Of a stretch of 64,000 nucleotides of DNA, positions 22,455-47,829 are shown piece by piece. The number at the start of each line of letters is the position of its first letter. The stretch's first letter is position 1. The position numbers and the translations under genes were made by a program. Origin of the DNA: Siphonodentalium dalli (taxonomy: Eukaryota > Mollusca > Scaphopoda > Gadilida > Siphonodentaliidae); the NCBI GenBank assembly GCA_032622095.1, contig CP136066.1, forward strand, positions 181,944,716-182,008,715. Reading direction: 5' to 3'. The notes beneath the pieces were generated by a model. The model was not told where the DNA came from. It searched no databases and saw only the letters and a list, made by a program, of their open reading frames with translations.

Positions 22455-22637
22455 ATGAGACCAGATCAACACAAACAGAAGAGGAGCACTCAATATAAAA
22501 AGAAACATGGGATCAACACGGAAAAGTCTAAAACAAATGAACAGAAGGGGAAAGTTGAAACTAAAAACGAAACTCGCCAGAATTTGAATAGGAATAAAGC
22601 GAAATTAGGAGAGTCTTCGTCCGAAGATTCGTCAAGT
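22455..22637 (+). CDS. AVEN: Aven homologue, coding exon 1
   Basis: Aven is a metazoan protein known in vertebrates to bind Bcl-xL and Apaf-1, restrain caspase-9 activation, and take part in ATM signalling. The six exons here join without a frame break into 393 residues (human about 362). Exon 1 gives residues 1-61: start ATG at 22455, a very basic Lys/Asn/Gln-rich stretch (MRPDQHKQKRSTQYKKKHG), then GESSSEDSSS, ending in phase 0 at a weak GTAATA donor. Human exon 1 instead encodes a long RGG/RG-rich tract, which is absent here. The acidic serine run leading into exon 2 corresponds to the acidic stretch before the conserved core. The assignment of this exon rests on phase, donor and composition. 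Confidence 0.8.
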
Positions 22638-23076
22638 GTAATATTTTTCTCCTGTATTCCTATTCAAATTCTGTATTTTAATATACCAATAATTTGAATA
22701 ACATGATTTTTGAAGTCTTTATGGTTTATCAAACGCACGACAAGAATGATTATTAGTAACAGCCCGAGGTCTTGGGCCGCTAGTAATACTAATAGGCCTG
22801 AGGCTGAGGCCAGTGAGGGCTGTTAATCATTCATGGAGGGCTGTTAATAAAGCCGATGGGGTCATTGTCACAAGGCTCCGGTCACATTCGTAGCCAGCTT
22901 TTTATATCGATCACAAATGTAGCCAGCTTTTCGCCGGCGATCACATTCTAATTCCATGCTTTATATATGATGGCGCGAAATATGACGTCATCGCGTTCGT
23001 GACTAATTGTCAGCGCACACGATCCCGATTGTGCCCAGGTTAAATCCAGCTGGCGGATAAATCAGCCCGATAAAAT

Positions 23077-23077
<1 letters not shown>

Positions 23078-23127
<50 letters not shown>
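23078..23127. repeat. poly-G tract (50 nt)
   Basis: Fifty consecutive G residues, flanked by similar sequence on both sides (GCGCACACGATCCCGATTG before, GCGCACACGAGTCCGATTTT after). On the transcribed Aven strand it would be an RNA G run able to form quadruplexes. Confidence 0.9.
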
Positions 23128-23128
<1 letters not shown>

Positions 23129-23677
23129 CAGCGCACACGAGTCCGATTTTCACTCCAGTCATATGCATGCTATGGTCACTGTACATACCGTAGTATATAG
23201 CCAACTGGTGTGGCCAGCCTATCTAGCCATTTACTATAGCTAGTCGTGGTGATTTATATTAATATGTATTTCTAAAGACTAATATTTATTAATAATAAAC
23301 TAAATAATATATTAATAATAATATATTGAGCTAATTTGAGGTCACAAGCAATACTGCCAATAGCCGTAAATTGACGTAATAGACCTTTCCACAGCTGCTG
23401 CCCTCTTGTTGCGAACTTGCGATTATTATATACGGGCACTCATCTTCTGCCCATAGGTCTACCAGCCGTTGTTCCTTGTCGATTGATCAGAATTCTTGAT
23501 TTATTTTCAAATAGTGGTCGCTGCTAACTATTCCGACATTTTGAATGAGGTTTTGGCCACGTGACGGTCATGTGACAAGCATAACACGCGCATTGCCATC
23601 ATCACAATCCGGATGAAATCAAACTCAGTTTGATTGGTTCGATTAAATCGGATCCGACAAAAACCGGCCCAAAGTTA

Positions 23678-23752
23678 GGCGCACACGATCCCGGTTGTCC
23701 CCAATTTATCCGGCAGCTGGATAAATCGGGGACAACCGGGATCGTGTGCGCC
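23678..23752. repeat. 75-bp palindrome
   Basis: GGCGCACACGATCCCGGTTG pairs with CAACCGGGATCGTGTGCGCC. The core GGCAGCTGGATAAAT matches phrases beside the G50 tract, so it is a compact version of the same unit. Confidence 0.85.
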
Positions 23753-24589
23753 GACACTAAAATATCGACATAATGCTCCAAAACTGACTTCGTTTATCAA
23801 CTTATATTGGAATATAATTTGAGCATCTTACGACATTGATCGGAAACCTCAGGTTATTAGATGAACTAATATAAAATTAAAATTTATGTTGTTTTTCATT
23901 CCATCAACTCAGAAAAATGAGAATAACCTAATCTTGTTCATTGAGGCTCGCATGAATATGAAAAGCTGGCTACAAATGTGATCGCCATAGAAAATCTGGC
24001 TACATTTGTGCTCGATTTAAAAAGCTGGCCACGAATGTGACAGGAGCCTTGTGACAATGACCCCATTTAAATTTTTAAGATTTCGGCAACATTTCTGTTG
24101 CTGCCACATAAAATCGTGTCCTGGCTTGAACAGGGAATTGGGAAATTATGTTAAAGTTTAAGCTCCAAAGTCGAAGAACTGCGTGGAATTCAAATGACAT
24201 TTGATATTTTATGATAATGATTACTAGTACATTCAAGCATGAGTTTTCTTCATAGAAGGTATTGGAGAACTGGAAGAGGTGCATGGGATAACTTATTCCA
24301 GGAAGAATCCAGACTACTCAATTCCAACTCGAGAAGTTCACAATTACCAATTGAACGACAGCCCACTCTAAGAGTGAATCTGATTGGCTGTTGCGATAAT
24401 GACATTCCGTCAGAGGACTATTGTAATGAGTCTACTAATGACCCTCGTCCGTGCATTCGTGTGTGCATCCGTCTGGCCGGAACTTTGTCCGAGTCTGGAT
24501 TCCTTTATTTTTTGGTCATTTTTAGCTCAACTTACTTTGTAAGTTTGAGCTATTGCCATGGTTTGTCGTCCGTGTGTCCGTCAACAATT

Positions 24590-26850
24590 TCCTTTGGCGC
24601 GGACTACAGGTCGTACCTTTGGTCTAATCTTTATGAAATTTGTCATGAATGTTGACATTCAGATTGACATGTAGATGGTAACGAGTCATTTTGGGGTCAT
24701 TCGGTCAAAAAACATGGCCGCTGGCAGCCATCTTGGATTTCAAAATTCAATCCATTGGCGCGGGCTACAGGTCGTACTGTTCGTCTGATCATCATGAAAT
24801 TTGTCATGGATCTCAATATTGACATGTAGATGGGAACGAGTGATTTTGGGGTCATTCGGCCAAAAACATGGCCGCCAGCAGTCATCTTGGATTTTACTCT
24901 TTGCATGACTAAATCCTTTGGCGCGGGCTACAGGTCGTAGCTTTGGTCGGAACTTTATGAAATTTGTCATAGATGTTAACAATGAGATGTAGATGGTAAC
25001 GAGTCATTTTGGGGTTGTTCGGCCAAAAAACATGGCCGCCAGCAGCCATCTTGGATTTTACTCTTTGCATGACTAAATCCTTTGGCGTGGGCTACAGGTC
25101 GTAGCTTTGGTCGGAACTTTATGAAATTTGTCATGGATGTTAACAATGAGATGTAGATGGGAACGAGTCATTTTTGGGTTGTTCGGCCAAAAAACATGGC
25201 CGCCAGCAGCCATCTTGGATTTGACTCTTTGCATGACTAAATCCTTGGGCGCAGGCTACAGGTCGTACCTTTGGTCTGATCTTTATGAAATTTGTCATGA
25301 ATGTTGACATTGACATGTGGATGGGAACGAGTCATTTTGGGGTCATTCGGTCAAAAAACATGGCCGCTGGTGGCCATCTTAGATTTAAAAATTCAATCCA
25401 TTGGCGCGGGCTACAGGTCGTACTGTTTGTCTGATCATCATGAACTTTGTCATGGATGTTAATATTGACATGTAGATGAGAACGAGTGATTTTGGGGTCA
25501 TTCGGCCAAAAAAACATGGCCGCCAGCAGCCATCTTGGATTTTACTCTTTGCATGACTAAATCCTTTGGCGCGGGCTACAGGTCATAGCTTTGATCGGAA
25601 CTTCATGAAATTTGTCATGGATGTTAACAATGACATGTAGATGGAAACGAGTCTTTTTGGGGTCGTTCGGCCAAAAAACATGGCCGCCAACAGCCATCTT
25701 GGATTTTACTCTTTGCATGACTAAATCCTGTGGCGCGGGCTACAGGTCGTACCTTTGGTCTGATCTTTATGAAATTTGTCAAGAATGTTGACATTGACAT
25801 GTTGATGGGAATGAGTCATTTTGGGGTCATTCGGCCAAAAAACATGGCCACTGGCGGCCATCTTGGATTTCAAAATTCAATCCATCGATTGGCCCGGGCT
25901 ACAGGTCGTACTGTTCGTCTGATCATCATGAAATTTGTCGTGGATGTTAATATTGACATGTAGATGGGAACGAGAGATTTTGGGGTCTTTCGGCCAAAAA
26001 ACATGGCCGCCAGCAGCCATCTTGGATTTGACTCCTTGCATGATTAAATCCTTTGGTGCGGGCTACAGGTCGTACCTTCGGTCTAATCTTCATGAAATTT
26101 GTCATGGATGTTAATATTGACATGTAGATGGGAACGAGTCACTTTGCGGTCATTCGGCCAATAATCATGGCAGCCATCTTGGATTTTACTCTTTGCATGA
26201 CTAAATCCTTTGGCGCGGGCTACAGGTCGTAGCTTTGGTCAGATCTTCATGAGATTAGTCATAGATGTTAACAATGACATGTAGAAGGGAACGAGTAATT
26301 TTGGGGTCATTCGGCCCAAAAACATGACTGCTTGGATTTCAAAATTAAATCCATTGGTGCGGAATACAGGTCGTACTATTCGTCTGATCATCATGAAATT
26401 TGTCCTGGATGTTAATATTGACATGTAGATGGGAACGAGTCATTTTGGGGTTATTCAGACAAAAAACATGGCCGCCAGCAGGCATCTTGGATTTTACTCT
26501 ATTCATGACGAAATCCTTTGGCGCGGGCTATAGGTCGTAGCGTTGATCGGATCTTCATGAAATTTGTCATGGATTTTAACAATGACATGTAGATGGGATT
26601 TGTAAAGGCTGTTGACATTGACATGTAGATGGGGAAAACATGGCCGCCAGCAGCCATATTGGATTTCACTCTTTGCATAACTAAATCCTTTAGCACAGGC
26701 TACAGGTCGTACCTTTGGTCAGATCATTATGAGATTTGTAAAGGCTGTAGATGGGAACAAGTCATTTTGGGGTAATTCGGAAAAAAACATGGCTGCCGCG
26801 GTGGCTATTTTATAATTTACTCTTTGCATCACTAAATCCTTTGGCACACC
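24590..26850. repeat. satellite-like array, ~160-bp unit, about 14 copies
   Basis: Each unit contains GGCGCGGGCTACAGGTCGTA, TCATGAAATTTGTCATGGAT, GACATGTAGATGGGAACGAG, TTTTGGGGTCATTCGGCCAA, ACATGGCCGCCAGCAGCCAT and TTTGCATGACTAAATCC. Unit starts fall near 24597, 24757, 24918, 25085, 25249, 25404, 25567, 25733, 25890, 26053, 26211, 26357, 26520 and 26690. Two subtypes alternate in part (with TTTTACTCTTTGCATGAC or with CAAAATTCAATCCATTGG), suggesting a higher-order unit. Single related units occur at 48660-48920. Confidence 0.88.
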
Positions 26851-27542
26851 ATAATCACCACATCCATGATTCGATCATTATGAAACCTGTCATGAATGTC
26901 GATATTGTCATGTACATCTTGTCTTACTTAGACATTTCAATTATAGCACCTTTCCTATTCCTCCATTTATTTCCCTACCTAAGTTGAGCTACCGTGTCAT
27001 TGACACTTTCATTTAAAAAACTTAGCACATATATCAACCAGCATGGTAACCTGTGCACCTTTGATTTTGAGTTTGGTAGGACTAATTTTGGCAGAGTTAT
27101 TGCCCCTTCTTGATGTAGAATTGTACATCCTGGGACTCATCATTTGTTCGAGCCTGTATTCCTTCATTTTCCAGTCAATTTTTAAAAAACATGGCACAGA
27201 TGTCAACCAGCATGGGAACCTGCGATTTTGAGTTCGATCGGACTCATTTTGGCCGAGTTATTGCCATTTTTTCGACATAGATTTTCGAGCTATTGACCCT
27301 TTCTCGACACATTGAAGATGTGCAACAGGTTTAGTGAATATGCACTTTGTATCATATTGGTGTATTCAATTCCTCCTACAGTTTGTAGTAAAGAGATCTG
27401 AAACCCATATATCCTTCAAACCTGCCACCTTCGTCGGGGTACATTTTGGTCAGCGACCTTTTATTTTACATGGCACTAACCGCTGCCAATTAAATATGAA
27501 AGTGAAACAAACACTTGAATTTCTTGAATTATATCTCTTTAG

Positions 27543-27696
27543 GAGAATGAAGCTGAGAAAACAAATGTTCCAATGGCATTATTCCAGCGCAGGAAACTTG
27601 TGAGCAACTGGGACAGATACGAAATACCCGATGCAGACGATCAGGAAAATGAAGGAACAAGGGGCGAAGATTTCAATAAATTGCTTTCAAATACAG
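27543..27696 (+). CDS. AVEN: Aven exon 2 (conserved core)
   Basis: Residues 62-112 and the first base of codon 113. It follows a CTCTTTAG acceptor in phase 0 and ends AATACAG|GTACAT in phase 1. It encodes ENEAEKTNVPMALFQRRKLV and SNWDRYE (82-88), then RGEDFNKLLSN (101-111). The block RK.VSNWDRY...RG.DF..LLS is the most conserved part of Aven from vertebrates as I know it, and fixes the identity of this gene. The donor is followed within about ten bases by a hairpin-forming MITE end. Confidence 0.93.
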
Positions 27697-27702
27697 GTAC
27701 AT

Positions 27703-28430
27703 GTACAGTAATGCCCTAAATAATCGACTCCTTCAAGATACCCGTATCTTTAAGGAGTCGATTATTTAGGGCATTGGTGGTGGGTATGCTGTTAAAATAT
27801 TCACCTTCGTCAAAAAACGCCATAAACAGAAATAATAGTAAAATATAGACCGACTTTGTTCTTATACCAATCAGAAATATGGCGTTAAAAGTATGTTATT
27901 GTCAAATGTTTTTCCTTTGTTATGTAAACAAAAGCAAAAAACGTTACAGAACCTGGCTTTTGTTTAGATCCGATATGGTAAACACAAAGAGCGTTATTTG
28001 TTACTGTATTCCTGATATGGAAATAATAAAGAGCGTTTATATCATTTGTTTGTGATTAACCAATAGAATTGCACTGTGTTATGTAAACAGAAGCAAAATT
28101 TCTGTAACAGGCTCTTGTTTATGTACACCATCGTACGTCTTGACGACAATATACTATTTACGCGCTGTATGTTTGGCATATATAACAAAACTATATATAT
28201 TTTAATATTCCTTCTGTTGATGGCGATTTGAACAAATATGAATATTTCTGCAACGAACGCCACCCGTGCCTTTAAACACAGCAGAATTATGGGTAATTTT
28301 TCAGGATTTAGTCGGAAATATGGTGAGAGCTTTTCGATGAATGGCAGCAAGCCATATTTCCGACTAAATCCTGAAAATTTACCCATAATTCTGCTTTGGT
28401 TAAGGAGTTGATTATTTATGACATTACTAT
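27703..28430. mobile_element. pogo/Tc1-like non-autonomous element, TA-flanked
   Basis: The left end TACAGTAATGCCCTAAATAA is directly followed by a self-complementary 64-bp hairpin (27711-27774). A second foldback at 28258-28412 carries the family interior (CAGCAGAATTATGGGTAATT, GGATTTAGTCGGAAATATGG). The right end near 28430 is ATTTATGACATTACTATA. CAGT...ACTG ends at TA sites suggest a Tc1/mariner-pogo relative. The hairpin could be a separate solo copy. Confidence 0.65.
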
Positions 28431-28540
28431 ATACTGATTTAATATAAAAATAAGTTCAACAGTTCTGTAACTCGAACGTTGAACATATCATTTGAACGTC
28501 TCTGTAATCGAAGAATACTGGACTCTCGTGGCTCAACCTA

Positions 28541-28816
28541 TTAACCCTTCCATGACTTGAGCATCCGGAAATTATGAAAAAACCCTGTGCCAATGCATTC
28601 TCTTATATATGCGAGTCTTCCATAGGCAGCCTCACATTTATAAGAGAATACTTTGGCCTAACAATATTTACCTTGATATTGTAAGCCAGTGCATTCTCTT
28701 ACATGTATATATGCAAGGCTCCCTATGGGGGGACTCGCATATACATTGTATAAGCAAATCCACTGGCATAGGATCCTTAGGCTCAGCGCAGCTCCCATCA
28801 TGAACCCCAAGGTTAA
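28541..28816. mobile_element. TTAA-bounded hairpin MITE
   Basis: TTAACCCTTCCATGACTTGA on the left and a decayed ATCATGAACCCCAAGGTTAA on the right, with two GCCARTGCATTCTCTTA-type hairpins inside. The end sequence differs from that of the 6.2-kb copy, so it is a sister family sharing the same core. Confidence 0.75.
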
Positions 28817-28929
28817 GTCATTGAAAAGCTGGTTTTATTCACTTTTATAACTGGTTTTATCCAGGTAAAGGAAGAGTTACTTGATTTGTTTGTCTGAGCA
28901 AGTTTGTCAATTTCTTACCACTGGCTAGT

Positions 28930-29580
28930 GGTTTGTATGTGTACACTAACCTGGTAATAGTGTCGGACATTTGCAGAATGAGGTCCCCAGAAGGTGAATT
29001 TCGTGATGCTATCCCACACAGCAGGATAGCATCACCAACTTCACCCTCTAGGGACCTCATTCTGCTAAGGCCTCTATGGGAGATCTAGGATCAGATTAAA
29101 GTTCTCCAGTTGAAGATTGTGATGATATTTATTAGCACCTTGATTATACATTTTATCTTCTGCAAATTAGGGGATATAAAAACAGAACAGAAGAGAAAAA
29201 GTAACTAAAAACAATGTTAATTTGAGACTATAGATTCTTCCCAGAAGGTGAGGCCTAAGAAGAATGAGGTTCCCAGAGGGTGAATTTGGTGATGCTAGCC
29301 CACTGTGCACCTCTGGGGACCTCATTCTGCAGATGTCAGACACACTATTTCCAGACTTGTATGTGCAGTGGCATGGATTTATAGCGTGATTAGCCTCTGC
29401 ATGGGTTCTTCTCAGAATTATCCAGTCCAAGTCTGAGTTTAGTGTGCCTGTCATTTGCAGAATGAGATCCCCAGAGGGTGAATTTAGTGACACTATCCCG
29501 TATGGCAGGCTAGCAAGCCTGGATATAATTTTTTTTTGAGTGTCTGACAAAATGACAGGCACCAAAGATTTGGCGTCTGA
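28930..29580. repeat. cluster of decayed palindromic repeats
   Basis: Hairpin units at about 28960-29066, 29265-29340 and 29450-29530 share TTTGCAGAATGAGGTCCCCA and CACCCTCTGGGGACCTCATT. They are diverged members of the 8-bp-duplication MITE family best preserved at 34679-34828. Confidence 0.7.
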
Positions 29581-29790
29581 CATTTTAAAAGTGTGTCTGT
29601 CATTTACCTGGTATCAATAAATAGCAGCAATTAGTTGTTTTTTAGCCCATTCGCGGAAACGTGAAACGAAACGACGCTTAATTATATCACTTACTCAAGT
29701 TACTGAAGCTATTAATGTCGATCAAATCGGAAAATTAGGATTACTACACGTGATCGGGACTTTTGCATACATTATGTGCTGTGCTAAGTC

Positions 29791-29960
29791 AGTGAACTGC
29801 CCATTGCTAATTTCAAATTGGCCGGATCGGATCAGATTAATCGGAAGTTGTCCGATATAGTAGCGCAAAATAGTCCGCCTAAAAAATCCTACGCCGTGCT
29901 TCCCCCAAGTAAACACGAGCACATGTTTCAAAACGCGGCGATTTTAAAACTACCTGGTAT
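29791..29960 (+). other. possible unassigned coding fragment
   Basis: A frame opens after a TAA at 29785 and reads VSELPIANFKLAGSDQINRK, then LSDIVAQNSPPKKSYAVLPP, ending LKLPG at a possible donor (CCTG|GTATGA). The composition is more protein-like than its surroundings, but no ATG, domain or partner exon was identified. It may be a transposon gene remnant or chance. Confidence 0.2.
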
Positions 29961-30429
29961 GAATTTTTTCGGAATTTCTTCCGCTAAATCTCCAACTAAC
30001 ACCCTTAACTTGTGGAATACATTACACTTGTGCTGATTTAACTTGTGACATCTCCGTGTATCTTACGTCAAACGAGAAAAACACGACGAAGTGTATTTCT
30101 TGGTTGGAGTTTCCCCCCAGTGGCAGCCATTTTTTTCTGGGTTTTTCACGTTCTAACAATAGAAACATTTATAGGTCCTGTATACGGAACGGATCATTAA
30201 CATGTTTTCGGTAAAACGCGTTGTATTGGTGGGGGAATTTGATATTTAGTGCACAGTAGTGGTAATTGAATGTCTTTGCCGCGGATAATACATCTATTTG
30301 TTGTTTTCCCCTTAATTATATATTTTTTGTGAAGATAATGGGCGCCGGACAAACCGACGGACGATAATAAGGCGGCGCTGGTCATCGGTGTATTTGGCTC
30401 GGTCAATGACCATGTCCGACCTCTTATAT

Positions 30430-30490
30430 CCAGGCTTGCAGGCTAACATCACCAAATTCACCCTCTGGGGACATCATTCTGCTTAGGCCT
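30430..30490. repeat. half copy of the palindromic MITE family
   Basis: Only one arm (AACATCACCAAATTCACCCT...CATTCTGC) is recognisable. Confidence 0.5.
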
Positions 30491-32255
30491 CATCTGCTAT
30501 GGGAGACATACAGTAGACTCAGATTGAAGTTCCCAAATGGTGAATATTGTGATGTACACCCATTGAGGGAACCTCGATTATGCAATGTGTCACCTGCCAA
30601 TTTGGGGATATAGAGAAACTAAACTTAAAAAGAAATAGATTATAAGCTATAGAAATTTGATAATAAAGAACCTTCTGTAAATGATAGGCACACTAAACTC
30701 ATGCTTGATCCTGTGTAGTATCAGACGTAAAAAAAAGTCAACTTTTCCCACTTGCTAAATTACCCCATTGTTCCCATTTTGATGTCTAAAATATTGTAAT
30801 TTACCAAAGTGATTGATTTCATTATAAAAATCCCCAAGAAATTACTAAAAACTTCATTGTTAATTGGAAATGATAAGTTGATGGATGGTACCACAATGGC
30901 ATTAAAAACATCTTGATTAAAAAAGAGCATGCCACTTTAACAAACATATCCCTATTGACATAATGCTGCACATGGGAGAGCACAAAATTGAATACCTCCT
31001 CACTTCTAATGGCCATACCTGTAATTCTCCTAATCAGATTCATAAAATTGCGATTCTAATCGCTCGAGTAAAAGCAATGATGTAAAAATCTGGTGCACAA
31101 TTCTGAATTAAACTGTCCAAAAACTCATAACACAGATGATAAACAAAATAATCTTCAAGAGCACTGGCTAGGGAAGACAGACTTTATTACTGAAAACAAT
31201 ACACCATATATTCCAAATACAGAATTTACCGATAAAAAACCCACATTTTGTCAAAGCCTCTACAAGTATAGACAGATCTATTGGTGGGTAGTGATATATT
31301 CTCAAATAACAATGGTGGGATTAAAGAAGAGATGGTATTTGAAGGTATGGACATAATTATACAAAATGTTAGGTGTTAAATAAACTTAAAAAAAAAATTA
31401 ATTGTGAGACCAATAAATGAGGATTTAATTTGGCCAGAGTTTTTTTTAATTTGGCAAAAAAAATCAGAATTGGGAAAAAGATTTTTCAGCCCAGCGTGGC
31501 TAGGATAGGATATTTTATTTCCAATACATATTACATAATAATGTTGAAAATTTTAGATAATTCTGTCGTATGTTGTGGGGGATGGCATAATCTGGCAAGA
31601 CTGTCTTCCTGCCATCCCCAGTATGGTAAATATAGAAAGTAATAACTTATAGTAAGATGGCCTCGGTTGAGCCATGCACATATTGTGTATATGTAATTTA
31701 TGAGTTTAGGGCTTAGTTCAAGAGTGTGTGAAAATGGATACTACCCGAGGGATGTTTAATATCATGTATATGGTTCAAATTCAGATGATCGGGTAGTATT
31801 TTTGGCGGATGAGGTTACAGGGACTACTGATTCATGTAGGTTGACGTTGAACACGTTGTATGTACGCTTAACGGGGTACGTTCTGGGGGCAGTCTGGGCA
31901 TACTCGATTTTTGCATTTGATATTGTTAGAATATGCGCTTATTGTTTTCTCTGTGATGTGTTTTTTGAATACATACCTACTTTGAATTTTAGTCATAGTG
32001 TTATCAAAGTTGTTCCATGAGGTTGGGAATGCATGAAATGAAATAAAAAGGAGGTTCTCAGGGTTTTGAGGAATAATGGGCGCTGTTGTCTACTCTCTAG
32101 TGTCAGGTCCGGCAATACGTATAGTGAACATTTGGGGAAAGGATTCAGGTAGGCGGTTGTTATACCAATCATGCATGAATAGAGTAGTATGGACACTGGT
32201 CCCCTTCCCAATCACAATATGATAATCTACATGGTCTTATCCTTTTGTTTTTCAG

Positions 32256-32419
32256 GAAATGTGTTGTCACAATTTCGTTTTGAGGAAGATTTAGATTGGA
32301 CTACTGGATCGTCTGCTGGCAATCATGATGTGTTCGCAGTCAATACCAGTCAGCTTGTGGATGCCCTAGAGTGCCTACCTATACACCAAATACTCAGAGT
32401 TGACAAAGAAATGTTTCCG
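32256..32419 (+). CDS. AVEN: Aven exon 3
   Basis: Residues 113-167. It follows TTTTGTTTTTCAG and ends ATGTTTCCG|GTAAAC, phase 1 in and phase 0 out. The segment starts NVLSQFRFEEDLDW, which parallels the DSFSQFRFAEEKEWD segment of vertebrate Aven, and continues into DVFAVNTSQLVDALECLPIH, corresponding to the stretch where vertebrates have a helix ending in ALQELPL. Together with exon 2 it forms the folded conserved part of the protein. Confidence 0.93.
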
Positions 32420-32785
32420 GTAAACATTTGTTCTGTAATTGTTAGCTATTAAACTCCAAGTTAAAGGGACAACCTGCTCCAACAGAAGTATAGACCTCAA
32501 AAATGTGTATTGGTTCAAGCCTAAATTTAGCGCATCTGACATTTGCAGAATGAGGACCACAGTGGGTGAATTTAGTGACACTATGCTGCATAGCACGCCA
32601 GCATCTCCAAATTCACCGTCTAGGGAGACCTAGGATCAGATTAAAGTTCCCCAGTTGAAGTTGGTGATGTTCACCAATTAGTCACCTCGATTATGAATTT
32701 TATATTCTGCTAATTAGGAGATAATGAAACTGAACAGAAGGGAAAATGTAAATTAAACAATGTTAATTTGAGACTATAGTTATTT

Positions 32786-32930
32786 CCCAGAAGATGAGGC
32801 CTAGCAAAATGAGGTTCACAGAGGGTGAGTTTTGTGATGATACCCCACTAGGTGGGATAGCATCACTACATTCACCCTCTGGGGACCTCATTCTGCAAAT
32901 GTCAGACACACTAATTTCAGACTTGCATTG
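32786..32930. repeat. diverged palindromic MITE
   Basis: AGGGTGAGTTTTGTGATG pairs imperfectly with GCATCACTACATTCACCCT, and the right end reads CAAATGTCAGACACACTAAT. No clear target duplication. Confidence 0.6.
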
Positions 32931-32984
32931 GTTCTCTACTTCTTTTGTACAACATGGACAACAAACTTATAGATAAATTATTAT

Positions 32985-33355
32985 ATAACTAGCTGATGTT
33001 CCCGACTTCGTCCAAGCTATGTAGGGATTTCTTTGTGATCGCCTCCATCTTGGCAGTATATAAGTCTGGACAAACTATTGTTCGTCGGTCCAGAAACATG
33101 GTCACACATGAAGTTGGACCTGCCCATATTGTTCCCGGGATCAAAGTAGGCCTACATACCAAATTCGAGTCCGATCGGTCAAGGTCAAGAAACATGCCTA
33201 TATGAGCGTATATGAGTGAGGTCAAGGACATGGAAGGCACGTGAAATTGGACCCGCTCATATTGTTCCCGGGATCAAATTTGAGTTGGATGGGTCGAGCA
33301 GTTTTCGAGTCTATAACACACACAGAGACAGACAGAAGTTCCAAAATATATAATA
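32985..33355. repeat. retroelement-like interspersed repeat
   Basis: It starts ACTAGCTGATGTTCCCGACT and ends CCAAAATATATAATAG. The phrase CATATTGTTCCCGGGATCAA occurs twice inside (33127, 33259). Related to 9396-9600. Confidence 0.5.
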
Positions 33356-33785
33356 GATGTGGCATATATATGTATCTTATCATTTTAAAGTTATTAGAGA
33401 ATAACATACATGTAACAATATTACTACAAACTCATGTTCAAGAAAATATACTTCCAGTTATCTATACCAGTTGTTTGAAAAAGGTATTGCTGCAAGAGCC
33501 ACTGAATCATTCAATCGTCATTCATCCATGCTGAAAACAGGCTCTTTTTTGCATATGAAAGATTGTCATTAAAGACATAGATAATCTCAAAGCAGGCCTT
33601 GAAATCCATAATATTTTACAAGAATCAAACGATAGCATTTCTACAGTGAATCAGCTGCTTTTATGAGAATCAAATTAAGAATCATGATTCTGATTCTCGT
33701 CAGATTTTAAGCCCTGCCAAGCCATGAATTAAGCCTAGTAATTGCTCAGCTTTGATTTATCTGGGGATGAAAATATGTTGATTAG

Positions 33786-34828: not shown

Positions 34829-35349
34829 AACCCAATGCATGACATACTGTTGCGTTATAGTATGTTAATAAAAGCTGAGATTCATGTGTCCACATATAAA
34901 AGCAAGTGAACATCGTTTTAACTCATTTCGTGGCATGCATGGATCTTGGATATTATTAAATTGTTAGCTAAGTGAGTGGATTGTGATTGTGAGTCAGTAT
35001 AGTCACACACATTTCAGAGTTTTGTGATTTACACAAAATTTATTTATTTCTATGACATTACCCTGTCGTTCAACTTATCAGTTTACGTCAAGTGTTCGTG
35101 CAGGTATATCCAGGCCTTAAAATTTGACAAGAATCAGAAAATTTGACAAGAATCAGAATCGTGATTCTCTATTTGATTCTCGTAAAAGCAGCCGAATCGC
35201 TGTAGAAATACTATATTTTGATTCTCGCAAAACTTTATTGATTTTAATGCCTGATATCATCACACAGTGGTTTTGCACCAAGGATATTTCTATAACAACG
35301 CAAGTTTAAATTTTTCCGTTTTACAATCTAAACCTCTCTATTATTGCAG

Positions 35350-35890
35350 GAAGAGCAACTGACATTAATGGAAGAAGCCGCCCGAAAGAACCGAGATGAA
35401 TATTGTGCTCGACTACAAGAAGATTTATCTCCTACAAACAAACATTTCCCTTCAATGTCCGCCAAATCAATCGCCAGTATGGCTATCATTGAAAATAGCC
35501 ACAAAGGGACAAAACTCTCAATCGATTCCCCCTCTCCTTCCACTGAAAGTGAGATTAACTTGCAAGAAGTTGTTGATAAGAGACTTCGGAAAGTTTCTGG
35601 TGATGATTCTAGAGCTATCACTGGAAAATTGGTCGAGAATGACAAACAGGATACGAGCAGCATTTCTGAGTCAAATTTGAGTACTTTGAAGAACTCTTCT
35701 GAGATACTCACAAAGGATAGTTTCAAGCTTCCAAGCACCTCGCACCAACATGTGGTATCTGAGACTGTGGGAGGGGCTGATAGAGGGAACCATACTGATG
35801 CAGACGATGATGATCTGGATTTGTTGTTAACCCTGGACAAACCGACACCCAGCAGCTTGGGGTTGTTAGAGCCAACGTCCTCAGAAAATG
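35350..35890 (+). CDS. AVEN: Aven exon 4 (large)
   Basis: Residues 168-347 and the first base of 348. It follows TTATTGCAG in phase 0 and ends AGAAAATG|GTAAGT. It starts with a charged helical segment (EEQLTLMEEAARKNRDEYCA), continues Ser/Thr/Lys-rich and probably disordered, and near its end contains DDDDLDLLLTLDKP (319-332), matching the EEELDLLLNLDAP element of vertebrate Aven. The middle is longer than in vertebrates. The reading frame beyond 35890 continues a little into the intron by chance. Confidence 0.93.
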
Positions 35891-35947
35891 GTAAGTTCAA
35901 AAGGCGAATGGGTCAACCTTTACTCATCCAACACCTGAAAGTTTCAC

Positions 35948-36792: not shown

Positions 36793-37134
36793 TTATATTA
36801 TGGGATAATCAATTGGGACAATTTTTCTTTACAGTTTTTAGAACTTTTAGACAGAGTTATCTCCGAACATATGCTAGCGTTAACATGTCCCAAATTGATT
36901 GTATGTACATGTATATTATACCAGAAAATTCAAAAGAAAATCAATATTAATTGATAGAAGCGTTTCCGTTTGCAATTCCTTTTATTATTTTATACCCAGG
37001 AAATTATATAAACTTGTTATATGAAGAGATAGACCATCTTTGAATGTGTTTTTTTTGTCCCCCGACGTTTCCGTTGGAGGACTATAGAAATGACCCTCGT
37101 CCGTGCGTCTGTCCGTGCGTGCGTCCGTCGGTCC

Positions 37135-37700
37135 GAGATTGGGTACCTTCATGGTGTAATCAACTCCTCCTACAGTTTTAAACGTAGAGATTTGAAACTC
37201 TGGAATATTGTTCCTAACATGTTGGTGATTTGCAATATCTATATAGCTAATCAAAAATATAATTTTTTCCATATTTTTGGGGGGGTTTTCGACTTAGAAA
37301 ATTTGGAACATTTTTGCCTTTTGGATGAGATTGGGTACCTTCATGGTGTAATCAACTCCTCCTACAGTTTTAAATGTAGAGATTTGAAACTCTGGGATAT
37401 TGTTCCTAACATGTTGGTGATTTGCAACATCTATATAGCTAATAAAAAATAGAATTTTTTCCATATTTTTGGGGGGGTTTTCGACTTAGAAAATTTGGAA
37501 CATTTTTGCCTTTTGGATGAGATTGGGTACCTTCATGGTGTAATCAACTCCTCCTACAGTTTTAAATGTAGAGATTTGAAACTCTGGGATATTGTTCCTA
37601 ACATGTTGGTGATTTGAAACATCTATATAGCTAATAAAAAATATAATTTTTTCCATATTTTTGGGGGGTTTTCGACTTTAAATGTAGAGATTTGAAACTC
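37135..37700. repeat. three tandem copies of a 192-bp unit
   Basis: Units start at 37135, 37327 and 37519 with GAGATTGGGTACCTTCATGG. All hold GTGTAATCAACTCCTCCTAC and TTTTTGGGGGGGTTTTCGAC. Copies 2 and 3 are nearly identical. A decayed relative sits at 27335-27420. Confidence 0.9.
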
Positions 37701-38044
37701 TGGTTTAATTTCTTTAAAGACCAGCTGAATAATACAATTAATTTAGCTCCAACCATATCTAAATATGTCTTAACTCATGCTAAATAAGGTTTATAACATG
37801 TATCCTTTCCATTTTGTTCACATTTTTACAAAAAAGTACTATTTCCAGACATTTGAATAAAACGGCTTCTTTGTTTACAATAGTCATTTTTGAATCGGGT
37901 GTTTCCGTCGCGACTCGGAAATGACGTCACCGAGGGTACAAAGACCGAAGAAATTTTATGCGCCGTTTTTAAAATCACGTATTTTGAAATCGTCTTTTTT
38001 ATTGTTGTTTATTTTTTTGAAGAATAAAACGTATTCGTCGCTGC

Positions 38045-38301
38045 ATGGCTGCAAACTGTAGCCATAAATGTTCAAGTGGCACAAGAATTAATGCAGCCAT
38101 TCAACAACAGTGGACGGCGTTTGTCCACAACGAGAGTTTGGAAATTGGAATGGGCTGTCACAATACAGCTGCTTGTGTTCCAAGCACTTTGAAGAAGGAT
38201 CTTTCACAAATATTGTGAAATGCAAGCTTAGCTGGGACATACAAAAGTGTGATTCACATTGTCAAACAAAATGTTATCTACGTGAATACCGGTACCAATA
38301 A
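38045..38301 (+). pseudogene. THAP-type zinc-finger fragment, frameshifted
   Basis: From ATG at 38045 the frame reads MAANCSHKCSSGTRINAA, then QQWTAFVHNESLEIGM, and closes at a TGA at 38216. A second frame overlapping from 38110 reads GLSQYSCLCSKHFEEGSF. Together these give the C..C, W..F and C..HF...F signposts of a THAP (C2CH) DNA-binding domain, broken by a frameshift near 38155. THAP domains are common in P-element-like transposases and their host derivatives. The location in an Aven intron inside a possible transposon suggests transposon origin. The FHRFP-like segment between C2 and W is missing or diverged. Confidence 0.6.
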
Positions 38302-39926
38302 ACACCCATGCACTCACGGTCCTTGTGGGGGGGTATCAATAGTCTAGTAGACCTACGGCTACGTCGTAGTACATGGATCATACATGAGGATTTACTTTCG
38401 GCGATGTGTGAATCGTCACTTGTTCTACTCAAGCGTGAATACATAAATCGACACCTTGGCAATACAAAATGTCAGCTATGCATGACAATATGCAAAAATA
38501 AGCATGATTTACAAGGCTATCAATCAACAATCTGTGTAATATAAGTGACTGTTCTACGTTAATTCTAGTCTAACGTGACGTAAACATCGATTAGAACCTG
38601 AACTTGAAATGTAATGATTCAATGAAAATCATTAGTAAGTCTTCTCACCAGATTGAATGTTTCGAATAATTAAAATCCAATACGAATCACCAATGTATTA
38701 ATCCATTTGTGAAAGCATATAAATGAAATCAGACGAAAAAGTACGGCACTGCATCCACGTGTTACGAGCTGTGTCGATCATGTCAGTTTGTCACGATTTT
38801 TCGCCAATATTTCCACCAACAAAACATAAATTCCTTGTATTCCAATCGAATTGTTCAGAGAAATTCTTGACGGTACTTCGAATTATATACATGGCTACGA
38901 ATTTATATGACTACATCAGTCATTAAGCAGTAACCGAGCATTAACAAACTGGTATTTGAACTATAAACACAAACAAATATTATGCAGGTGATGTGACCTA
39001 TACATCTGACCTAACCTCAACGTCATACACGTGCGTGTGCATATCCATACTCGACAATAATGTGTCTAAAGTTGACTATGAAACACCTACTATCGTAAAA
39101 GATAGATCAATTATGGAATTATGTTACCTTTTAACATGCCTTCAGTCCACTGTATGGGTATTATTTTTAAAATAAGAACAGCAATCGCGAGGGACTATTT
39201 TGTTATTGCGAACGTAGCTTGCGTAAAATATCGTTCGATTTGTGATCAAAGCGCAGTACCGTAGGCCTAGTAAGTACTACGTTCGTCGTATGCACAGGAA
39301 CGCCCACATTTCCACCGAGTGTGGTAGATATAGGCCTATATAGCCCCTAGATAGTTGCTCCGTGTGGAGATTGTGCGTTACTAGTCTTGATTCATTTGAA
39401 ACAATAAATTGAATAAACATAATACATATACTGAAAATAATATATATACGTACGCCTTTTGCGGTTTTTGTTTTGTTGACAGATTGTCAAAAAATGTGTT
39501 GTATATGATAATCTAAAGGCCATGCATGATACTGCATTTAGACTTCAGGTCAGTATCGGTACGTAGACAGCAGTTTGGAAATTCTTGATAGTATAAAATG
39601 TTTGATGTTTCACACCTATACCTACCATTAGTGACCAGACATTCTCAATGAGAACTTGGATGTCTATATAAAGCCAGTTGAAAAATTTAAACATAAAGAG
39701 CATTTAATTGGAGGATTATAGGGCCTACTAGTAATGGAATATATAGGTCAAGCTTTTGCGGATTTCTGCTCACTATGTTCATGACTGACTAGATGAAATA
39801 ATTACATACCAACAAATCTAATACCCAGTATCGTGAATATCAAGTTAAAACATAATTGTTTATTTAATCATGGAGCGATCTACTTGTGATATGCAGTTTC
39901 TGCATAAATGGTGAAAGGATGTGTCT

Positions 39927-39946
39927 CCCCCCCCCCCCCCCCCCCC
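39927..39946. repeat. poly-C tract (20 nt)
   Basis: Uninterrupted C run. Confidence 0.9.
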
Positions 39947-40943
39947 GCAATTAACTGCTTGACACAACATAAGTCGAAAATTATACGTAACCACATACAG
40001 GCTGAACTGTCTAACTGTTTGAATTTCAATTCAGTTATTGTTGAGGATTGGGAAATGTGTTGACGTTTAGACCAACGTACAGCAGCCTATCTGTTTGGTC
40101 CGAAAGAGGGGGAACCGGTGCAAATGCATGGTCCATGGATGCGATGATTTATTGTCGGATCGTCGGTAACCGGTCTCTCGCCGATATGTGGAGGATCATT
40201 GTCATCAGGCTCGAATGCAGCAAGCTCAAAATCATCTTTACAACGTTAGCGCTGACCTGCCATCGCCATTATAGCCGCACGTTGCCAATGACGCAAAGCA
40301 GAACTGTGCATTTGTGTTCCCTCCGTGACGTCATGTCACGTGCTCCTCCAGTAGCCATGTGCGCGCAGTGCAAAATGAAAACAAATCTTCGGCGACTGTT
40401 TCGTTCCCAAGATATAAAAAATAATTGCAAGATATTTTGACGGGATTTTTTGCGGATTTGTGTTAAGGGGACTTAGATACACACGGGATGATATATCAAT
40501 ACTCAAATTAGGTTACAGTTCAGCTGGACTTTAACAAAGAGGCCATCGACATTTTTTTAAATTTCTTTAACAAAGCGGCCATCTACTTGCCACGTTGTCG
40601 GGGGACACTGTGGTCGGCCGACCTTTTATTTAACTTTATTAAAGTATTATTTTATTAAGAGCATTTGGCATATTATTTGGCAACTTCAGTATTAGTAATT
40701 TGAGGCAAATGACAGGTACTCACTTTAATTAGGTACACTTTAATTAGGTACATGTAGGTTACAATACAGTCTTTGTAAACATACACTCAGATTCATACTG
40801 ATACTGAGTCTGTTGCACTCCCATCAACTTTTCATTTCTGTACGGTTGCGGGCTTCCCCCTAATTACGTCACACTGCGCTAAATATAAATGTAAAATTAG
40901 TTGTGATTGACAGGTGTAAACATGGTCACGTGCCAGTGCCGTC

Positions 40944-41168
40944 ATGGCCGCTTCAACCCCTGTGAAGCCGATTCTCAGAATCGGAATTAATAGGTGCAGG
41001 GTTTGTGACTTTTCGTTCGGCGGTAGTTTTACTGACAATAAAGGTAAACAGCATCCAGGTTCCAAAATAAAATGTATTTTAAAGACAGATCTGCTTGAAA
41101 TTATAAAAAATGTCAATTTATGTGGATTTCTTGGACTTAGAACAAATTATTTCTCTCTTCCGGTATAA
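40944..41168 (+). other. unassigned 74-codon frame with Cys pair
   Basis: The frame starts ATGGCCGCTTCAACC and encodes MAASTPVKPILRIGINRCRV, then CDFSFGGSFTDNKGKQHPGS and a Leu/Ile-rich end (KTDLLEIIKNVNLCGFLGLR). The CRVC pair, a later Cys and the helical end resemble the start of a zinc-binding protein or transposon-encoded factor, but I cannot name a family. It lies 260 bp before Aven exon 5 on the same strand and its frame does not join Aven. It may be a first exon of a transposon gene. Confidence 0.3.
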
Positions 41169-41430
41169 CATGACGTCATGGATACTATTTTTAACAACCT
41201 TTAGCCACACCTTCGGAATTTCCACACCAAGAGCACGTGACATGTTAATAGTTTTTTATTGGCGAACACATTTCTTAGAGTAAGTTTTGATTGGCGGTAA
41301 ATACAAGGAATCACGGTTTTGGGAAATGAAAACTGAACGAAAGGTCGCCAGACCCACTATTTTTTATATGTGGGTATGTAGTTTACTCCAGACTGGTTAC
41401 AATACACTGATAGTTTTGTTTCCTCTTCAG

Positions 41431-41496
41431 ATGAAACACAGCATCTTGAGAAACAGAGTTCAGATCTATCTAGTCAGAGTGACAGCCAGCCCTCAG
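41431..41496 (+). CDS. AVEN: Aven exon 5 (small)
   Basis: Sixty-six bases, phase 1 to phase 1, residues 348-369 plus one base. It follows a strong TTTGTTTCCTCTTCAG acceptor and ends CCCTCAG|GTATGT. It encodes DETQHLEKQSSDLSSQSDSQ and PS, a polar linker before the C-terminal motif. Because it is 22 codons and phase-symmetric it could be skipped without frame change. The exon end and its donor are repeated twice more just downstream. Confidence 0.85.
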
Positions 41497-41800
41497 GTAT
41501 GTCTCTAGTCTCCTATCTAGTCAGAGTGACAGCCAGCCCTCAGGTATGTCTCTAGTCTCCTATGTATTCAGATCTATCTAGTCAGAGTGACAGCCAGCCC
41601 TCAGGTATGCATCTGTCTCTAGACTCAAGCCTTGAAATAGTGTGTCTGTCATTTGCAGAATGAGGTCCCCAGAGGGTGAATTTGGTGATGCTAGCCTGCT
41701 ATGTGGGGTAGCATCACTAAATTCACCCTCTGGGGACCTCATTATGCAAATGACAGGCACACTATTTCAAGGCTTGTCTAGACTCCTATGTATTCAGTGT
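41465..41800. repeat. triplicated exon end and 5' splice site
   Basis: The string CTAGTCAGAGTGACAGCCAG followed by CCCTCAGGTATG occurs three times, with potential donors at 41497, 41544 and 41605. The third copy is split by the MITE at 41626-41776. Only the first donor keeps the Aven frame: the second adds 47 nt, and the third adds 108 nt but includes an in-frame TAG. Confidence 0.88.
41626..41776. mobile_element. palindromic MITE with exact 8-bp duplication
   Basis: CAAGCCTTGAAATAGTGTGT to its complement, one hairpin. Flanked by TCTAGACT at 41618-41625 and 41777-41784. Confidence 0.92.
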
Positions 41801-42399
41801 TCAATACCTCCAGTTACAACAACACAACAACATTATAAAGTTATTATACAATGAGTCCAGGTTTTGGTGAAAAGTCATAATGGATGAGACACGCAGTCCA
41901 CAGTCCACAACCTGGACGAGTTCAAAAAAACACATACTGTACACAACATTGTATAATGACATTTTTATTATCCATCTGTATGTTTAATATCAAACATTTT
42001 GGATTAAACTTTTGTGGTTATTTTTGGTATTTGTCGGCACTTAATTCTCTATAAAAGCCTGTATTTTGATCATCAGAAAGCATGATTTGGCAGAGTAAAC
42101 ACGGAAGTGAAAAAAACTCAACGCGGAAGTGAAACTTCTGCTAAATCCACCAGTGTTGCTAGCGCATCACAATTTCACCGATTCATTTTGCAATAAAAAG
42201 TCATGTTGCACACTTGGGAGTCCAATATGACATTCGGGAGTCCAATATGTCTTTTTACCGGATTATTATGTGGCGGCCTTTGCCCAATCAGAAAAGGTGT
42301 TAATTAAGAGATGGATAATAATATTTCTTACTGCAGGCAGAACATACTAGTATTTTATACACCCATTTTAATAAACGGGACAAATTATGTTTTTGGTCC

Positions 42400-43070
42400 A
42401 TTTGTCTGTTAAAATTGTGTTTTCGGATGATAACTTTTGTTCTATTGAACTGAATTGAATGAAATTTGATATGTAGGTTCACTACGATTAATTACAGTTC
42501 GATTTTGGGGTTTGGCCATCCATTTTTTACCAGTTACGACCCTTTATTGAAATTTGGGCTCAATTTTAGTTTCCGAATGATAACTTTAGTTAAAAATAAC
42601 TGAATGGAATTTTGTATGCAGGTCGACAAACATAAATTACAGGTTAATTCGATATTTGGTTCCATCCGCTTATTTTTACCTGAGTTATGGACATTTATCG
42701 ACTTTGAAATTTGGGTTTCTTGGTTTCCAGATGATAACTTCAGTTAATGTTGACTGAAATTAAATGAAATTTGGAATGGAATGAAATTTGGTGCATGTTT
42801 ACAACCATAAAATACAGATCAAGTTCAATTTCGGGTTCTGTCCGGGTTTTTTTTACCAGAGTTATTGACCTTTTTCGACTTTGAAATTTGTGTTTTCTTG
42901 GGACCGGATGATAACATCAGATAGTGTTGACCAAATGGAATGAAATTTGTTATGCATGTTTGAAACCATAAAGGACAGTTGAACTTTGATCTTCGCTACC
43001 ATCCGCCATTTTTACAAAATTTATGATCCTTTATTTACTTTGAAATCTGGTTTCTGTTAATAACTGCAGC
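42400..43070. repeat. diverged tandem, ~155-bp unit, four copies
   Basis: Recurring GATGATAACTT, TGAATGGAATGAAATTTG, CATAAANNACAG, TTTTTACC and TTATTGACCTTT phrases in the same order, with many changes. Confidence 0.75.
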
Positions 43071-43106
43071 TGGTGCTGATTTACCAACAAACTCGGTATG
43101 TGGATG

Positions 43107-43366
43107 CAAGCCTTGAAATACATGTAGGGTGTCTGTCATTTGCAGAATGAGGTCCCCAGAGGGTGAATTTAGTGATGCTACCCCACATAGCAGGCTAGCA
43201 TCACCAAATTCACCCTCTGGGAACCTCATTTGGCTGAGGTGTAAGCAGAATGAGGTCCCCAGAGGGTGAATTTGGTGATGCTAGCCCGCTATGCGGGGTA
43301 ACATCACTAAATTCACCCTCTGGGGACCTCATTCTGCAAATGACAGACACCCTATTTCAAGGCTTG
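43107..43366. mobile_element. double-hairpin palindromic MITE with 8-bp duplication
   Basis: Two hairpins in series between CAAGCCTTGAAATA and TATTTCAAGGCTTG. Flanked by TGTGGATG at 43099-43106 and 43367-43374. Confidence 0.92.
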
Positions 43367-43819
43367 TGTGGATGAATTAGCTAAAAATACAAGCTGTGCT
43401 TGAATGGGTGATTTGTCCAAATATTCTCACCAAACTTATTTCGCTCTTTTTTGGCTAATTTTTTTTAAATTTTATTAGTTTTCGTATATGGAATCTTTCT
43501 GGAATGCATTTTGAAACAAGTCAACTGCCGTATTATGACACCATGGTGATGCTCTTGATAAATCTATAAAATAAATGTTTACATCATAATTTATCACAAA
43601 ATTAGCCCCTAAACCCAGCGTCATATTTTTAACAAGACACACGTTTATTATCGGCACATGCATTGACGTAAGAGCTTAGCGCAATGATGTCAGGGGGGGT
43701 TAGGGGGGGTATACTGGAATCAGCTGTGCCGTCCGTCGTCTGTCGAGCTGTCCGTGGACACAAATTTGTCCGGAGATTTTCTCAGTCGTTTTTTGATCAA
43801 TTTCCGTGAAACTTGGCAC

Positions 43820-45668
43820 TAGGGTTGAAACGATTAATCGACTAGTCGTAGACGACGCTGAAATGTCAGAACGTCGACTCTGAATTTTGCCGTTGACTAG
43901 TATGAAGATAGTGTATTACTTCCATGTATAACGTTTTCAAGATCGATTCCGGCATAAACGGTGTTAACTGCGCATAACTTATGGTAAGTATAACGTTTGG
44001 TGGCACCCGGAATTGACAGTGTTACTAGTATAGACACACACGGTGACCCGACTATTAATTGAAAGAATGAAATTGACAACACAATGTCTCATTCGTCGTT
44101 TGAGGTCAAAGACATCACTGCGACATGATGGCAATGATTGACGCGGCTTTATCGTTTGTCGGAGACCGCTTGGATCTAGACACTGTGTATATTTCAATTG
44201 ATCTCGCACCGTCGGGTTATGATGCGACTCTGGGATAAGGTCGCTTAAGGTGACGTCATTGGTGCTACCGTATATAAATGATACTGACATTAAGAACTGG
44301 CTATCATATTCTACAACATAGCCTATACTATAGGGCGTATTTAGTCGGAACATTATCATTTTATAGTGACACCGCTCGGCACCGGTTTATTGGTGATCAC
44401 GTGACTAAAACGAGATCTCGAACGCTGATATTAAATTTAAAACCTGTATAAATGATCGAGTTTCTAATCATTATCCACCACATGTCTAATTATATGATTA
44501 CATTCAGTGTGTTGGATAAATATCAAGATGTTTACAGTATTATTTCCTAGAGCTGGGACGGTTATGCGGTTAACCGGTTAACCACCAACTATGGCCGTGA
44601 CCGGTCACGGATTTGCCGTGGTCGGTTAACCGTAACATCACTATTATAGTGTATGATCATTGTGATGGTCAGCTATAACTGGCTATAAGAGGGTTAATCT
44701 GTCTCCGTCAATTAAAATGAATCCGAGATTGATGGAACAACATCAAACGCGGTGTGTCGGCTCTTTGAAGGCTACATTTAACAGCCTGCCGACGAAACAT
44801 CAAAGGGTCAGCACATGTGTGATCTTACAACATTGTCACATCACATGACTCGTATTCAGTATTATTATCAGGAAGATAATTGTTTTTGTTATCAACGACT
44901 AGTTATTTCTTGAGACTCCCGGCCCTTCAATCCATTTCCCCCCCCGGACAACATCACATACCAACGTATATGTAAGTATTTCATTAAGAATAAATAATAA
45001 TTGTTCGCCCACCCAGCTACCGGAAATTGCGGAATAATCAATAAAATATTCCGGAATGTATATTAAACCTTTCTAGTCGTCACTTCCGTGTCGGTGTGTT
45101 CAGCTTCCCGCCCGATCACATATCCCGATGGCGATGGAGTAATTTTACAAGGACAATAAATGAACACAACACAGCCTCACAGGGGAATGACATTGTATAT
45201 TTATTTTATTCAGTAATAAATTGAAGATGTGTACTTAATTAGATATGTGATTATGTGTGTCATGGGTGACAACTTCTTTGTATAATGGGCAGGAGCCGTT
45301 CTCAAACTTACCATGTCAGTGAGCATCACAATCATCGCCGTTCTGCATACTGGGCTTACCCACCCGTAATAGTACCTATAATATGTGGTTAACCGGTTAA
45401 TCGCGGTTTTTTGCCGTTCATAACCGGTCACGAAAAACCCGTAACCGTCCCAGCTCTATTATTTCCCAAATAAATTGGTGTCTATGCAGGGAAATGCGCT
45501 ACGCAATAGACCGTCATTGCATTAGTCATCAGTGTACGCCATGTACGATGATTTTTCCGTACCATGTTATGTTTGAAAGTTTTGATATCGGGTACCGACT
45601 AGTTGACGCAACGCGACTTTCGGGTCTCGACTAGTCGACTCTGAAATTCACTAATCGTTTCAACACTA
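43820..45668. mobile_element. hAT-type element (outer)
   Basis: Ends TAGGGTTGAAACGATTAATC and, on the right, the complement of TAGTGTTGAAACGATTAGTG, followed inside by CGACTAGTCGA motifs at both sides. Exact 8-bp duplications CTTGGCAC lie at 43812-43819 and 45669-45676. It contains another hAT-type element. No transposase was seen. Confidence 0.9.
44548..45458. mobile_element. hAT-type element nested in the outer one
   Basis: Ends TAGAGCTGGGACGGTTATGC and complement, with repeated GGTTAACCGGTTA and ACCGGTCACG sub-terminal motifs. Exact 8-bp duplications TTATTTCC lie at 44540-44547 and 45459-45466. About 911 bp, no coding capacity. Confidence 0.93.
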
Positions 45669-45689
45669 CTTGGCACAGACATCAACCAC

Positions 45690-46050
45690 CATGGGAACCT
45701 GTGCACCTGCAATTATGACGTCTGTCGGACTTTTTTTGGTGGGTTTATCCCCCCTTTTTCGACTTAGAAATTTTTCGCAACATGTATAATTTTGTCCGAG
45801 CTTTTATTCCGACATTTTTAGGTCAATGTTTTTTAATCTTGGCACTGATATTTAGTACCATGGGAACCTGTGCACCTGCGATTATGATGTCTGTCCGACT
45901 TTTTTTTGTGGAGTTATTTCCCTTTTTCGACTTAGAACATTTTCGCAACATGCATAATTTTGTCCGAGCTTTTATTCCTAAATTTTTCGGAAATAGGTTT
46001 AAGATTAGGGTTAGGGTTGTGCACCTGCAATGGAAACTGTTATTTTATTA
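45690..46050. repeat. two tandem copies of a ~165-bp unit
   Basis: CCATGGGAACCTGTGCACCT and CATAATTTTGTCCGAGCTTT occur in both. A relative lies at 27040-27230. Confidence 0.75.
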
Positions 46051-46199
46051 TTTTAACTGTATCCTTAGTCCCATTGGGACAGTCACACCTCCAGTTAAAA
46101 TATAATTATGATATTCGATTTGTGTTGGGCTATTTAGTGTTGACTGTGAGATAATGGGTGATTGTTACCCTCCTCCCTATTTTCCACCCTTCTGATTGG

Positions 46200-47264
46200 C
46201 CCATGTCCTTTCACGTGCCGGGCGACAAATCACACTGTCGCCCGCTGAGCCGGGAGACATTGTTTTTGTCGCCCGCTTGATGTTATATTGCAAGAATATC
46301 TCCAAACACACTGCAGTAACTCATCTATTTCACATCACTACGACGTACTAAAATCATAGTTCTTATATACCCCACGGATTCGCAAAACACACCAGTTGTG
46401 GTGTTTGCTAATTTGCATATATTTAGTGAACACTAATATTCGAACTTTTAAGTTGATACTTTTATCGGACAAGCGTTATTATGTACTTTTTATATCGAAA
46501 CATCTCGGTGATTCAATATATTCATGTCAACATTATGGTGCAAGATTGAAAGAGTGGATCCCTAGGGGTTGGTTGGTTATAAATGTTTGCTGGTAGACAA
46601 CATAATGCATACGTTTGTCGTGAATGAATGGTACTGTAAGCTTATCCATGATATCAGACCGCTCCGCGATGTCTGCACTGTGATCATAAAAGTATTTTTG
46701 TGTGAAGATCGCCATGTACTTGGGAGCATTGACACATATGAATGTACATTAATGAAATTGACAACTTCCGAATATCTTTCGGGGAAGACCGTTATGAAAT
46801 GAACATCGCGAGTAAATCCGCACACAAGACGACATTGACTATGCCACATTTCAGAAGGCGATAACATACCTATATATGGCTTATTGGTTTACATTGCATG
46901 GACCGATATTGACGATTTAACCACCAAAATGATCGTAAATAAACGCTGATTATCAAACGCTTGACTATCTTTATGGAACAGAATTCCTATAGGACGATAA
47001 GTAGTTACTGAAAATATACATAATCGGGAAAGAAATTTAAGCACTTGTGACTCAGTGCAACATCGTGCGTGTGAATGGCAAGGATTTTTTTCTGTGGTAT
47101 AATCGGATAACAAAACAGTTGTTGCCCTTCTTCTCGGGAGACATCGAGATTTGTCACCCGCGCGAGAACGGAATGTCTCCCTCGGAGCTGCGCACCTCGG
47201 GAGACATTCCGTTCTCGAGCGGGTGACAAATCTCAATGTCTTCCTCGACAGCGGGCGACAACTG
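46200..47264. mobile_element. possible element with GGGCGACA/GGGAGACA palindromic end
   Basis: The right part (47119-47264) is a large palindrome (GGAGACATTCCGTTCTCG against CGAGAACGGAATGTCTCC, around CTCGGAGCTGCGCACCTCG). The left part near 46210-46285 has GGGCGACAAATCAC and GGGAGACATTG. The outer boundaries are uncertain. Confidence 0.5.
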
Positions 47265-47755
47265 TATATTGAACAATTTGTCAACATGAAATGACACATT
47301 TAAAATGAAACTATATTTTTTTCTTGAAACTCTCTTAACATCCTCTTTGACTGTGATAAGGAAGTCAATATTAAATTTTGTTTAACCCCAGCCGTATCAA
47401 GATCATTTTTCCTTGCTAAAATGTGATTATGTGATAACATCGATTTCAAGTTCATCTCAATTTTATACAAAATTTAGTAACCTTCTCCACTAAATTTGAT
47501 TTGAGCCTTGTTAAAGTGTACTCTGATTGTACATTTCGTATATTGCGACTCATTAGAGATCCTCTATTTGTAGAATAAAATTCCTAAAACATGTGAGATA
47601 CCATACATGATATATAAAGTTTGTCTATAAATACCAAACTATGTCATTTTAATTTTAAAATTATTTTTGTCGACAAAATGCTGTTCACACATCATGATTG
47701 ATTCCACAAAGAGTGCATCTATGTGTTTAATTATTAACATTGTTGTCATCTGCAG

Positions 47756-47829
47756 AGAAGCCACTGACGAAAAAGAAGACAGAGTCAGAAGATCTAGAGG
47801 ACTGGCTTGATAGTGTTCTAGAGGCTTAA
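47756..47829 (+). CDS. AVEN: Aven terminal exon 6
   Basis: Residues 370-393 and stop TAA at 47827-47829. It follows TTGTTGTCATCTGCAG and enters in phase 1, so codon 370 (Glu) is shared with exon 5. It encodes KPLTKKKTESEDLEDWLDSV and LEA. Vertebrate Aven ends in an almost identical EELEDWLDSM motif, which makes this exon secure despite its small size and its 6-kb distance from exon 5. No AATAAA was found in the next several hundred bases, so the 3' end is not placed. Confidence 0.93.

Follow-up and report, generated by a model that had tools for sequence, protein, structure and literature searches.

The stretch analysed here (the window, 64,000 nucleotides, corresponding to C6:181944716-182008715 of the Siphonodentalium dalli assembly) most probably contains a gene of the Aven family on its forward strand, of which the coding part amounts to 1182 nt that are spread over 25 kb. 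The six exons listed in Table 1 were cut out and joined at their GT-AG borders with the phases 0, 1, 0, 1 and 1, which yielded 393 codons followed by a TAA stop. The earlier note had proposed exactly this chain, and the motifs that it had read from it, SNWDRYE, SQFRFEED, DLDLLLTLD and DLEDWLDSV, were all recovered in the joined sequence at the proposed span. It was also right that exons 1, 2, 3, 5 and 6 are each shorter than 190 nt, but its statement that no automatic long frame displays the gene went too far, as the mechanical list of open reading frames contains frames of 206, 87 and 80 amino acids that correspond to exons 4, 3 and 1, respectively. With its short exons and long introns, the gene would not be assembled by a search for long open frames alone.

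Table 1. Exons of the Aven gene model, the repeat at the exon 5 donor and the matches of the joined protein in the assembly (window coordinates).
Feature	Position	Strand	Description
Aven exon 1	22455..22637	+	183 nt, ends in phase 0; start codon, lysine-rich N-terminus, residues 1-61
Aven exon 2	27543..27696	+	154 nt, ends in phase 1; RRKLVSNWDRYE block
Aven exon 3	32256..32419	+	164 nt, ends in phase 0; SQFRFEED and LVDALECLP block
Aven exon 4	35350..35890	+	541 nt, ends in phase 1; serine- and acid-rich linker, DLDLLLTLD
Aven exon 5	41431..41496	+	66 nt, phase 1 to 1; can be removed without a frame shift
Aven exon 6	47756..47829	+	74 nt including TAA; SEDLEDWLDSVLEA C-terminus
47-bp repeat with exon 5 donor	41466..41620	+	tandem pair of identical copies (41466-41559), followed by a copy at 83% (41574-41620)
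Genome matches of the joined protein	22455-22637, 27534-27701, 32252-32428, 35341-35898, 41385-41507, 47749-47826		

A stop-free run of 393 codons would arise by chance with a probability of 6e-9 if all bases were equally frequent and of 5e-12 at the base composition of the window, figures that apply to one given chain and include no correction for the free choice of splice sites, so that the weight has to be carried by the similarity test described below. The splice borders were ranked against the GT or AG sites of the window with a rough matrix. By this measure, the donors of exons 2 to 5 and the acceptors of exons 2 to 6 all reach at least the 95th percentile, with exon 2 at the 97th percentile for its donor and the 95th for its acceptor, and the acceptor of exon 6 at the 98th. 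Downstream of the stop codon, where positions 47830 to 52000 were scanned, no AATAAA or ATTAAA occurs within 2.4 kb; the first AATAAA lies at 50290 and the first ATTAAA at 51243. Exons 2, 3, 4 and 6 are well supported. The model is likely to be complete, although exons 1 and 5 contain no motif that could be aligned to human AVEN and no poly-A signal lies close to the stop.

A frame of 504 amino acids on the minus strand (20494-22008) contains a reverse transcriptase domain (RVT_1, 2e-30) and probably belongs to a LINE-like element. Its edge lies upstream of the Aven gene, at a distance of 447 bases from the start codon. Intron 1 harbors a tandem array of 13.3 copies of a 164-bp unit (24590-26739) and a run of 50 G at 23078-23127, the length of which may be unreliable in the assembly. 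A palindromic hairpin repeat with the core GTCCCCAGAGGGTGAATTTRGTGATG recurs between 28983 and 57949, where the core was matched 26 times when up to 3 mismatches were allowed, against an expectation of 0; its arms are up to 111 nt long with 95% complementarity in the three stretches that were examined, and it looks like a MITE-type element. Further downstream, two minus-strand frames with EGF-like domains (58203-58526, 5.4e-5; 62839-63039, 6e-5) probably represent exons of another gene, with EGF repeats, on the opposite strand.

Members of the Aven family are characterized by a central block with the motifs SNWDRY and SQFRF and by an acidic C-terminal tail with LEDWLDS, and both are present in the joined protein. 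Compared by blastp with human AVEN, the letters of which were not taken from a database, in a search of this one sequence, the central block aligned with 70.5 bits and an E-value of 7e-18 over residues 75-166 (37 of 95 positions identical), while the C-terminal tail gave a second match of 28.9 bits with 12 of 22 positions identical. A third match with 18.1 bits and an E-value of 0.36 was regarded as noise. The local score against this human sequence was 210, and none of 1000 shuffled sequences reached it, the highest shuffle scoring 76. As the first match crosses the junction of exons 2 and 3 and the last one falls into exon 6, the chain is held together by more than its open frame. The DLDLLLTLD of exon 4 faces LDLLLNLD of the human protein in a MAFFT alignment and was not found as a blastp match of its own, and nothing in exon 1 (residues 1-61) or exon 5 was aligned by blastp. 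A profile search of the joined protein against Pfam and NCBIfam, the latter of which serves bacterial and archaeal genomes, returned no match up to an E-value of 1, and no solved structure was found in the PDB up to an E-value of 10. With its matches at the SNWDRY/SQFRF block and at the LEDWLDS tail, both far above the shuffles, the name Aven proposed in the earlier note is supported, and we are highly confident that the span represents an Aven ortholog, allowing for an error in exon 1. The further likening to vertebrate Aven holds for the motifs, but not for the N-terminus, as the RGG/RG motif of the mammalian proteins is missing from the model.

Exon 1 is the least certain of the six exons, because its donor is weak and because it carries no conserved motif. 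The donor AAGT/GTAATA (the slash marks the exon border) reaches only the 77th percentile of the GT sites in the window by the rough matrix, and an alternative donor at 22636 breaks the frame. It is therefore conceivable, even if we consider it unlikely, that the gene is indeed Aven while its real first coding exon is at another place upstream, perhaps beyond the edge of the window, which would be a variant of the favored interpretation and does not exclude it; such an exon could even carry an RG-rich N-terminus. Apart from the low rank of the donor and the lack of a blastp match in residues 1-61, this is favored by the abundance of possible substitutes: the region from 12000 to 27540, upstream of exon 2, holds 230 first-ATG frames, and 27 start-donor pairs among them, with 18 different starts, end in phase 0, are at least 60 nt long and have a donor score of at least -2.0, and thus a donor equal to or better than the chosen one, which scores about -2.0. 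No exon 1 donor scoring above 3 was found between 20000 and 27500, and none of the 27 alternatives was preferred, since by eye none of them resembles Aven. Some of them are antisense to the reverse transcriptase frame, and at least one is located inside the satellite array of intron 1. On the other hand, the ATG of the drawn exon is preceded by an in-frame stop at 22380, and no further ATG falls between the two. The exon encodes a basic and hydrophilic stretch (the first 60 residues include 16 K/R, 8 D/E and 3 G) with an acidic serine stretch at its end, immediately before the conserved block. Human AVEN likewise has an acidic serine stretch just ahead of its conserved block. A guide sequence for exon 1 of human AVEN, as given in PMC4561382, reads G-A-S-A-P followed by GTAAGA. 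Read along the human protein, it points to a phase-0 intron 1 in the human gene a few residues from the position of intron 1 in our model. We therefore consider exon 1 as drawn to be plausible.

A different peculiarity is found at exon 5, the donor of which lies within the 47-bp repeat. Each copy of this repeat carries the donor sequence CTCAG/GTATG, resulting in donors after positions 41496, 41543 and 41604, and only the first of these joins exon 6 without a stop to give the full-length protein. Use of the second donor shifts the frame and leads to a premature stop; the third keeps the phase, but includes a TAG and is likewise terminated prematurely. Skipping of exon 5 altogether preserves the frame. 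The three nearly equal donors are a possible source of aberrant transcripts. Just 3' of this repeat, at 41626-41776, there is also a palindromic repeat with arms of 71 nt.

The joined protein was searched against the complete assembly (2,226,750,531 bases in 9 contigs), and all 6 of the 6 matches in these 2.23 Gb were the exons of the window itself. A paralog, a retrocopy or a second Aven was not found in the assembly by this protein search, in which 15 candidates were scored. The span would thus represent an intact Aven ortholog on the forward strand, the only copy found in the assembly, with six exons to be spliced over 25 kb. Large introns full of repeats, an exon 5 donor that has been multiplied by a repeat and the lack of a nearby poly-A signal are features that could also be expected of a decayed or non-functional copy, but the introns and an intact frame are retained and no other Aven copy was found in the assembly, which makes a pseudogene very improbable. 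A chance chain of exons that merely resembles Aven, for which one could adduce the missing profile match in Pfam and NCBIfam and the ease with which short motifs are picked by eye, can practically be dismissed in view of the match across the exon 2-3 junction, the additional C-terminal match in exon 6 and the failure of all shuffles to reach the score. We think that the name is very likely right, and we see in the gene an ordinary Aven ortholog.

The functional data considered here come from mammals, in which AVEN is known to associate with the Ski complex and with FOCAD at ribosomes, and any mechanism proposed for the protein described here would have to be carried over from there by analogy. 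Work in mouse cells describes AVEN and FOCAD as interactors of the Ski helicase SKIV2L and reports that AVEN prevents the stalling of ribosomes on structured RNA; the same source cites AVEN as “conserved from mammals to flies” (PMC7083229). An anti-apoptotic role by way of Bcl-xL and Apaf-1 is mentioned in PMC4561382. A search with the FOCAD profile PF11229 gave no match in the assembly, and it gave none in any of 14 control genomes either, which leaves the missing match without weight as a sign of absence. Human AVEN is described to possess an N-terminal RGG/RG motif that binds G4 RNA and is a target of methylation by PRMT1; deletion of residues 1-73 removes this motif (PMC4561382). According to PMC11789052, which repeats the methylation of the RGG/RG motif and the binding of G-quadruplexes, the RGG motif of AVEN recruits DHX36.

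In the protein modelled here, RG pairs are completely absent from residues 1-61, and the whole sequence contains only two of them, at positions 101 and 312. The mammalian type of N-terminal RGG/RG motif is therefore missing from the model, provided that exon 1 is right. We treat this motif as a feature of the mammalian members and not as one that defines the Aven family. As the modelled N-terminus is lysine-rich and without RG pairs, contact with RNA might be made by a simple basic tail or via partner proteins rather than by a methylated RGG/RG motif, a step of which we are less sure than of the identity of the gene. It may be that this Aven lacks the motif altogether, that the ancestral job at the ribosome is carried by the conserved core, meaning the SNWDRY/SQFRF block together with the LEDWLDS tail, and that the binding of G-quadruplexes was either gained on the way to mammals or lost in the lineage studied here; this proposal is tentative, and we give it somewhat less than an even chance. 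If the N-terminus is right, a comparison of the RGG-free protein with its mammalian counterpart would allow the ancient portion of Aven to be told apart from the portion that binds G-quadruplexes. The missing RGG motif is the one modest point in which the gene goes beyond a routine ortholog, and it rests on the weakest exon. No paper on the evolution of the RGG motif in invertebrate AVEN was found in a literature search that mostly left out subscription papers, so that the matter may already be published.

Compared with human and mouse AVEN, the human letters again not being those of a database entry, the protein shares the elements RK(I/L)VSNWDRY, SQFRF, LV-AL--LP, LDLLL-LD and LEDWLDS, and it shares them in the same order. 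The corresponding protein of flies is named dAven. Two differences to the human and mouse proteins stand out: the RGG/RG N-terminus belongs to them and is not part of the model presented here, and the linker that leads from the central block to LDLLL is longer in our protein, as judged from the MAFFT alignment with the human sequence.
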